This document shows positions 61,646 to 63,577 of a stretch of 64,000 nt of DNA, piece after piece. The notes beneath the pieces were generated by a model. It made no database searches, was not told where the DNA came from, and worked only from the letters and a program-made list of their open reading frames with translations. How positions within the stretch are numbered: the stretch's first letter is position 1; each line of letters begins with the position of its first letter. Source of the DNA: Anaerococcus ihuae (lineage in GTDB: Bacteria > Bacillota > Clostridia > Tissierellales > Peptoniphilaceae); the NCBI RefSeq assembly GCF_928368155.1, contig NZ_CAKMRU010000001.1, positions 124,001 to 188,000 of the forward strand, in the 5' to 3' direction. The position numbers and the translations under genes were made by a program.

Positions 61646-63577
61646 ATGCTTTTTAAAACAACAGATGAGCATGAAGCTTTACGTAAAAAAGTCAGAGAAT
61701 TTGCTGAAGAAAAAGTAAAACCAATTGCTTTTGAGCTTGACCAAAACAACGAATTTCCTGACGAAATTGTAAAGGAAATGGGAGAATTAGGATTTTTAGG
61801 AATTCCTTATCCTAAGAAATACGGTGGTCAAGGCTTAGACGTAATGAGCTATGCAATCACAGTTGAAGAATTATCGAGAGTAGATGGTGGTGTTGGAGTA
61901 ATTTGTTCTGCACATACATCTTTAGGTTCATGGCCAATTTTTGCTTTTGGTACTGAAGAACAAAAGAAAAAATATCTTGTTCCTTTAGCAAAAGGTGAAA
62001 AAATCGGTGCATTTGGATTGACAGAAGAAAACGCAGGAAGTGACGCTGGTGGAACAGAAACTACAGCTGAACTAGACTTAGACGGCGAAAGATATATTTT
62101 AAATGGTAAAAAAATATTTATTACTAACGCTCCAAAAGCAGATACATATGTTGTATTTGCAGTAACAACTCCAGGAATTGGAACTCATGGTATTTCAGCA
62201 TTTATAGTTGAAAAAGGCATGGAAGGATTTACATGCTCTGATCATTATGACAAATTAGGTATTAGATCATCATGTACTGCTGAATTACATTTTGATAATG
62301 TAAAAGTTCCAAAAGAAAATCTTCTTGGAAAAGAAGGACAAGGATTTAAGATTGCTATGGCAACTCTTGATGGTGGTAGAATTGGTATAGCTTCACAAGC
62401 TTTAGGTATTGGCCAAGGTGCTTATGAATCAGCTTTATCATATGCTAAAGAAAGAGAACAATTTGGTATGCCAATTGCTCACCTTCAAGCTAATACATTT
62501 AAACTTGCTGATATGGCAACATATTTGAAAGCTGCAAGACTTATGATTTATTCAGCAGCTGAATTAAAAGAAAATCACGAAAGATATTCTGCAGATGCAG
62601 CTATGGCAAAACAATTTGCATCAGATCTTGCATCAAAGATTACTAACGAAGCATTACAAATGTACGGTGGATCTGGATTTATTAAAGGAATCGATGTTGA
62701 AAGATTCTACAGAGATTCTAAAATCACACAAATCTACGAAGGTACAAATGAAATAATGAGAGTAGTTGTTGGAGCTCATACAGTAGGTAGAGCACCAAAG
62801 GTTAAAGCTGTAGGATCAAACAAAAAATCTGGACCCATCGCAGGAGTCAGAAAAGGAGAAATCTATGAGGGAGATCCTAAAGAAGCAGTTAAAAACCTTG
62901 TGGCAGCACTTAAAAAGGACGGATATGACTTTACTGTAGGAATCGATCCTTATACTCCAATTCCTGACGCTGAAAGAATAGTTGTAGCAGGTCGTGGTAT
63001 TGGTGAAAAAGCTAATATGAAATTAATTGAAGATTTAGCTTACCAAGCAGGTGCAGCTATTTCATCATCAAGACCAGTTGCAGAAACTTTGAAATATGTT
63101 GATATTAATAGATACGTTGGTATGAGTGGACAAACATTTAAAGGAAACTTATACATTGGTGTAGGTGTATCTGGAGCAGGACAACACTTAAAAGGAATCA
63201 AAAATGCTTCAACAATAGTTGCAATTAATAATTCTAAAAACGCTCCAATTTTCAACAACTGTGATTATGGTATAGTTGGAGATGCTATGGAAGTTCTTCC
63301 ACTACTAATTAAAGAATTAGATAATGGTGAAGAAAAGAAACCAGCACCACCAATGAAGAAAATAAAAAGATCTAAACCAAGAAAAATGGCTCCTACAAAT
63401 CCAATCTATGTAGATTTAGGTTCTGGATATGAATACAATCCTGAAGAAGGAGATCCAGAAAATGGAATTGAACCAGGAACACCATTTGACAAACTACCAG
63501 ATTCTTGGGTTTCACCAGTTTCAGGAGAAGCTAAAGATCAATTCATTAAAATGGATGTACCAGAAGACAGAAAGTAG
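61646..63577 (+). CDS. Acyl-CoA dehydrogenase / EtfA FAD domain / rubredoxin-like fusion
   Basis: This 643-residue protein has three parts. Residues 1-380 form a complete acyl-CoA dehydrogenase, with [25 protein letters not shown] and the catalytic Glu365 in QIYEGTNEI. Residues 443-557 match the C-terminal FAD domain of EtfA ([43 protein letters not shown]); the N-terminal EtfA domain is missing. After a Lys/Pro-rich linker, residues 587-636 match rubredoxin ([34 protein letters not shown]), but the four iron-binding cysteines are Asp590, Ser593, Ser623 and Ser626. The AGGAGG start is clear. A flavodiiron gene follows 12 bp on. The fusion probably passes acyl-CoA electrons through flavins; the last domain cannot bind iron as rubredoxin does. 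Confidence 0.9.
62972..63316 (+). other. EtfA-like FAD domain inside the fusion
   Basis: Residues 443-557 of the fusion align segment by segment with the second domain of the EtfA at 8805. RGIG matches [14 protein letters not shown] matches SSRAAVDAG, GMSGQTF matches GQSGKTV, and [20 protein letters not shown] matches APIFGRADYGIVGDLFEVVP. The NADH/EtfB-facing first domain has no counterpart; only a linker of about 60 residues precedes it. Confidence 0.85.
63404..63553 (+). other. Rubredoxin-like domain lacking all four metal cysteines
   Basis: Residues 587-636 keep the rubredoxin backbone: [21 protein letters not shown], LPDSWVxPVxG and KDQF. The CxxC pairs are DLGS and SPVS. The codons read gat, tct, tca and tca, so more than one base change from a Cys codon may be needed for some, and a single sequencing error cannot explain it. 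Confidence 0.85.

Follow-up and report, generated by a model that had tools for sequence, protein, structure and literature searches.

The window analysed here is a stretch of 64,000 nucleotides from Anaerococcus ihuae (contig NZ_CAKMRU010000001.1 of assembly GCF_928368155.1, positions 124,001 to 188,000 of the forward strand). Close to its end lies a fusion gene of the BCR type, and a flavodiiron protein (FDP) gene starts 12 nt after the stop codon of the fusion (Table 1). The complete FDP has 413 aa in a related locus (L113). The fusion combines an acyl-CoA dehydrogenase, the C-terminal FAD domain of EtfA, a basic linker and a rubredoxin-like (Rd-like) domain, while EtfA domain I (PF01012) was not reported for it in the Pfam search. 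Its closest named loci, among the best 80 of 582 relatives, belong to A. jeddahensis, A. senegalensis, A. vaginalis and A. obesiensis, with 98-99% protein identity. A second flavodiiron protein (FDP2) is encoded divergently upstream, and beyond it an [FeFe]-hydrogenase-like protein (PF02906) is found at 58158-59990 (+); ahead of it stands a thioredoxin-like [2Fe-2S] protein with a score just below its Pfam cut-off.

Table 1. Features of the fusion gene and its neighbours (positions in the window; residues are those of the fusion protein)
Feature	Position	Strand	Basis or remark
FDP2, second flavodiiron protein, divergent, upstream of the fusion	60065..61279	-	
BCR-type fusion gene, 643 aa	61646..63577	+	Pfam PF02771, PF02770, PF00441, PF00766, PF00301
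Acyl-CoA (butyryl-CoA type) dehydrogenase domain, residues ~1-380	61646..62785	+	
EtfA C-terminal FAD domain, residues 439-558	62960..63319	+	PF00766
V447	62984..62986	+	Ser in compared ETF-alpha proteins (VVSxGRG loop)
G505	63158..63160	+	Ala in compared ETF-alpha proteins (YIAxGISGA)
Lys/Arg/Pro-rich (basic) linker, residues 559-586	63320..63403	+	Sequence; low pLDDT at 580-584
Rubredoxin-like domain without cysteine ligands, residues 587-636 (about)	63404..63553 (about)	+	PF00301, ligand columns, predicted structure
Asp590, ligand position 1	63413..63415	+	Codon GAT
Ser593, ligand position 2	63422..63424	+	Codon TCT
Ser623, ligand position 3	63512..63514	+	Codon TCA
Ser626, ligand position 4	63521..63523	+	Codon TCA
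FDP gene, ODP and flavodoxin domains	63590..64000, continues past window end	+	

The C-terminal part of the fusion is recognised by the rubredoxin profile PF00301 with 50.7 bits (cut-off 23), yet none of its four iron-ligand positions is occupied by cysteine (0/4). The sequence-only reading had proposed that Asp, Ser, Ser and Ser took the place of the two CxxC pairs in an otherwise retained rubredoxin domain, and D590, S593, S623 and S626 (D/S/S/S below) bear this out. The Asp and each of the three Ser are fixed in all 29 Anaerococcus fusions, where the four positions vary only synonymously: GAT/GAC at 590, TCA/TCT/AGT at 593, TCA/TCT/AGC/AGT at 623 and TCA/TCT at 626. Since a switch between TCN and AGY takes two base changes, Ser itself appears to be retained. 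A single base change leads from a Cys codon to either codon type, and hence parallel losses at 623 are possible. The ligand sites are not exceptional in being fixed, because 33 of the 49 positions of the domain are invariant within the genus; L591 is found in 27 of the 29 fusions.

Ligand states were read from the columns of a single 200-protein alignment. In the family fetch, counting the cysteine and the D/S states, as the earlier reading had suggested, sorted all 87 fusions by genus: D/S/S/S in 29/29 from Anaerococcus and C/C/C/C in 58/58 from other genera. Among the named loci, which are the 80 best of 582 relatives, 19 are D/S/S/S, all of the Anaerococcus type, 53 are C/C/C/C (Cys4) and 8 are without the domain, and 33 further loci comprise 32 C/C/C/C and one truncated copy. 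These three sets share part of their genomes. When only distinct sequences of the last 300 residues are considered, the numbers are 27 D/S/S/S versus 131 C/C/C/C. No fusion among those read has a mixture of Cys and other residues at the ligand positions. Our survey also shows no other independent loss of the ligands, as all 143 domain-bearing fusions outside Anaerococcus keep the four Cys (the sets overlap). It covered 130 genomes of the family, 249 of the order (9 beyond the family), 398 drawn from the phylum (5 with a match), 61 and 197 from two more orders (9 and 14 with a match) and the 80 named loci. The Anaerococcus collection holds one genome per species, and the fusion is present in 29 of its 31 genomes, being absent from G007 and G023.

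In a quick tree built from residues 1-560, and so without the Rd-like domain, the D/S/S/S fusions form one clade with a support of 100 and one label change. They form one clade again in a tree made more carefully from 79 rows, 11 of which are D/S/S/S. Their nearest relatives (L145 and L147) have four Cys. The tree of D/S/S/S requires only a single origin. Within Anaerococcus the pN/pS of the Rd region is 0.158 (codon bootstrap 0.085-0.250), between that of the dehydrogenase region (0.099) and that of the EtfA region (0.187), and in four other genera with Cys4 fusions it ranges from 0.073 to 0.166. The Rd-like domain is thus under purifying selection in Anaerococcus. The fixation of D/S/S/S in 29/29 genomes together with this selection rejects a sequencing or assembly error as well as recent decay, either of which, on the earlier reading, would have been indicated if every close relative lacked the D/S residues. 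The same reading had supposed that selection acts on the surface of the domain and not on iron. That part of the claim which concerns selection holds (pN/pS 0.16, with D/S fixed), and the domain may offer a docking surface.

A related enzyme, butyryl-CoA oxygen oxidoreductase (BOOR), composed of BCR and FDP, was described in 2024 in Fusobacterium (Biochemistry 2024, 63:2352, cited here through the papers that refer to it). According to these papers, BCR lies beside the FDP gene in Fusobacterium nucleatum (FN1424-FN1423) and has the order Bcd - EtfA C-terminus - rubredoxin (PMC12288474; PMC13404960, a preprint; PMC12630350), and the two proteins make up an alpha4beta4 complex in which butyryl-CoA is oxidised and O2 is converted to water (PMC12288474, a review). 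The Anaerococcus locus resembles BOOR in its N-terminal dehydrogenase, which appears to be of the butyryl-CoA type, in its EtfA C-terminal FAD domain with no domain I reported, and in the two-domain FDP of the adjacent gene. It differs from BOOR in having none of the four Cys and in altered residues of the FAD loops; the Fusobacterium-labelled locus L062 has all four Cys. With D590, S593, S623 and S626 at the ligand positions, the Anaerococcus BCR is therefore a variant of BOOR and not a standard member. By analogy with the Fusobacterium enzyme, the fusion and its FDP are probably a butyryl-CoA-driven O2-removing enzyme, and both the reaction with butyryl-CoA and O2 and the complex of BCR with FDP would carry over from that work. 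BOOR is already known, and its putatively iron-less variant is new as far as literature searches show, although the primary paper on BOOR, reached via citing papers, may mention Anaerococcus. PMC9160270, the one paper in these searches that matched Anaerococcus and rubredoxin together, looks unrelated.

The FDP gene follows the fusion immediately on the same strand in all 29 Anaerococcus genomes that have it and in all 58 other fusions of the family. The near-complete genomes G007 and G023 are without the operon FDP as well as BCR, but keep another FDP that is 47-48% identical to the operon FDP (five genomes checked); there the two genes appear to have been lost together. The earlier reading had pictured the domain as a docking module recruiting rubredoxin-using partners such as the FDP next door. 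The FDP is upheld as partner by the Fusobacterium complex, in which the same kind of fusion is joined with it (PMC12288474). The recruiter of assorted rubredoxin users is not upheld, because the match of the pair to BOOR places the Rd-like domain within a fixed complex. The FDP shows nothing unusual that would indicate co-adaptation, with 4 genus-specific changes in 151 conserved columns; other genus groups, seven in number and smaller, have between 0 and 12. Cys4 fusions of the BCR type with Gly at 447 and no FDP match in the fetched flanks are found in Allobaculum and relatives (L102, L106 and L111).

A structure search with the full-length model gave only acyl-CoA dehydrogenase-like chains among the 50 matches listed, and the Rd-like part was therefore folded and searched alone. 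It is predicted with a mean pLDDT of 83.6, and its superposition on rubredoxins spans 51 columns at ~0.6 A. The alignment feeding this prediction has 35 rows, 28 of which are Cys4 relatives, and so the result does not independently prove folding of the iron-free domain. The domain is thus of the rubredoxin fold according to a prediction aided by Cys4 relatives. It is like Rubredoxin (PF00301) in sequence profile and predicted fold, and unlike it in the absence of both CxxC pairs. For comparison, Class III superoxide reductase (Treponema pallidum), an enzyme unrelated to BCR, has a domain of desulforedoxin fold whose ligands were lost. PDB 1qcv (rubredoxin variant PFRD-XC4), also matched, is probably the cysteine-free P. 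furiosus variant of Strop and Mayo 1999. The Anaerococcus domain would be similar to that variant in being a rubredoxin that folds without iron, but its fold is known from prediction, and the P. furiosus protein was made in the laboratory. P. furiosus rubredoxin with all Cys changed to Ser is reported to match the iron-free protein in its CD spectra and in its stability (PMC3945938). In FDP classes F and H a rubredoxin centre is added to a flavin donor and FDP; that of class F differs from the Anaerococcus domain in having an iron centre, which is short-spaced and fused to the FDP itself (PMC6033852).

Changes specific to Anaerococcus were taken from columns with at least 90% conservation among the 58 relatives that are at least 95% fixed to another residue in the genus. 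Eight columns of BCR are of this kind, namely the four ligands and T399A, S447V, A505G and I508V, whereas none of 209 conserved dehydrogenase columns is changed. The number of such changes in EtfA is not unusual (4 of 77 conserved columns, where seven other groups, each with 3 to 14 sequences, have between 0 and 11). They stand out by which sites are involved and by their recurrence in BCR paralogues without the Rd domain, and not by number. Ser at 447 and Ala at 505 are found in all five ETF-alpha alignments shown (two of them human), and the normal EtfA of the window's genome retains both. The VVSxGRG and YIAxGISGA loops presumably touch FAD. Residues 447/505 are V/G in all 28 distinct D/S/S/S sequences and S/A in 126 of 131 distinct Cys4 sequences. 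Moreover, G505 occurs in none of these 131 and was seen only in Anaerococcus.

A BCR relative that ends after the EtfA domain was identified in 18 of the 31 Anaerococcus genomes, with one more, ambiguous match in G020; the Rd-less BCR relatives of this genus are L103, L104, L105, L107, L108, L284 and L286-L300. The 8 named loci without the domain consist of 5 Anaerococcus paralogues and L100, L109 and L112. Of 23 paralogue places 20 were fetched, the omitted ones being G009:C2, G026:C10:1207409 and G020:C60 (a 649-aa frame with 38% identity), and a length filter of 500 aa removed L293 (a 329-aa piece) and the truncated L249 and L262 from the tree and the residue counts. Among 19 distinct Rd-less Anaerococcus paralogues, 447/505 are A/G in 12, V/G in 5, G/A in 1 and S/A in 1, while three Rd-less fusions of other lineages have S/A (2) or A/A (1). 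The D/S/S/S clade is separate from the main Rd-less clade in the tree. Gene conversion from the Rd-less paralogues was rejected for a subset of sequences (11 D/S/S/S, 2 sisters, 6 other Cys4 and 9 paralogues), in which D/S/S/S is closer to the Cys4 sisters than to the paralogues in 9/9 windows over residues 381-562. Given the separate clades and the lack of a conversion tract in this subset, the changes at 447 and 505 look convergent between D/S/S/S and the Rd-less Anaerococcus paralogues. L299 and L300 are Rd-less and share a very long branch (1.78), which may reflect fast change or another function.

Close to 16 of the 20 fetched Rd-less paralogues, and to 5/5 of the named ones, there is a divergent FDP gene (partly the same genomes), at a distance of ~1.5 kb in L104 and L286. 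A second, rubredoxin-free BCR/FDP pair is hence plausible, and this possible second BOOR-like system is suggested by gene position only.

Taken together, the Rd-like domain of the Anaerococcus BCR very likely binds no iron. Butyryl-CoA would be oxidised at the FAD of the dehydrogenase, and its electrons would move on to the FAD in the fused EtfA domain and further to the FMN and the di-iron site in the FDP, where O2 would be converted to water. In Anaerococcus the terminal domain, its four ligands lost, may have been kept as an iron-free structural or docking part, and transfer from EtfA FAD to FDP FMN may be direct, aided by the changes in the FAD-binding loops. The sharing of the S447 and A505 changes with the Rd-less paralogues, and the FDP near those paralogues, support such a redox-dead domain and direct transfer. 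Against it count the unexceptional invariance of the four sites, the FDP without unusual genus-specific changes, a fold prediction aided by Cys4 relatives, the short rubredoxin-like open frame in 31/31 genomes that could serve as an external relay, the restriction of G505 to Anaerococcus, A505 kept in 3/3 Rd-less fusions elsewhere (S447 in 2/3), and S447 changed in 5/131 Cys4 sequences. We would give the joint reading, in which docking and transfer are conjectural, an even chance. The wider proposal is more tentative, and we hold it to be possible but somewhat doubtful: the rubredoxin relay may have been abandoned twice in Anaerococcus, by the Rd-less paralogue and by an iron-free docking domain, with the FAD pocket re-tuned at the same residues for direct transfer from FAD to FMN.

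The chief rival supposes that a free, standalone rubredoxin relays electrons between BCR and FDP, from EtfA FAD to FMN. All 31 Anaerococcus genomes have the short open frame that could encode it (its Cys were read in the window's genome only), and the other rubredoxin match of the window's genome, at 88 bits, has four Cys. Standalone matches are, however, also found in many relatives with a Cys4 BCR, so their presence is not specific to the loss in Anaerococcus, and the dead Rd domain would still fill the tethered place; we regard this relay as unlikely. The FDP might instead be fed by something else, the fusion being an acyl-CoA dehydrogenase with another acceptor. The loss of a redox centre could signal such a change of partner, but the gene pair is kept in 29/29 genomes, and BCR and its FDP are jointly missing in 2/31, which makes this explanation very improbable.

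Other alternatives concern the domain itself. It is rather improbable that it serves only as a cap for folding or solubility, or is a remnant in slow decay, without specific contact to a partner. The related fusions without the domain (8 among the 80 named loci) indicate that it can be lost, but the upper bound of 0.25 on its pN/pS of 0.158 and its 33 invariant positions of 49 argue against a remnant, as does the lack of any shortened copy among the 29 Anaerococcus fusions. Position 625, directly before ligand position 4, is moreover Val in 29/29 of these, against Glu, Lys or Asp in 48 of the 58 relatives. The fixation of the Asp and each Ser in 29/29 could also point to the binding of a different, harder metal or another ligand. 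To our knowledge there is no metal site composed of Asp/Ser/Ser/Ser in a rubredoxin fold. Ser may simply suit a rubredoxin that holds no iron, and the P. furiosus variant with Ser at all these positions is an example (PMC3945938); we consider another metal a remote prospect.

The role of such domains beside FDPs is what makes the finding interesting: where an FDP combines a flavin reductase module with a rubredoxin domain, it is unknown, according to a 2018 paper, why the rubredoxin centre is needed (PMC6033852). A fold kept without iron and paralogues without the fold, both in one genus, represent a natural experiment in which relay can be told apart from docking, and the preserved iron-less domain allows one to ask about roles of rubredoxin domains other than electron carriage. 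Naming such a domain 'rubredoxin' from a profile score, as would be done here at 50.7 bits, can mislead on its chemistry.

The window's genome yielded no match to the Rd-less paralogue, only BCR and the normal EtfA being matched. In other Anaerococcus, FDPs that are 59-67% identical to FDP2 stand divergently near Rd-less BCR paralogues; hence the FDP2 of the window's genome may have lost its own partner. The FDP2-type gene is followed by what we take to be an NAD synthase-like gene in at least L103 and L107, as in the window's genome.
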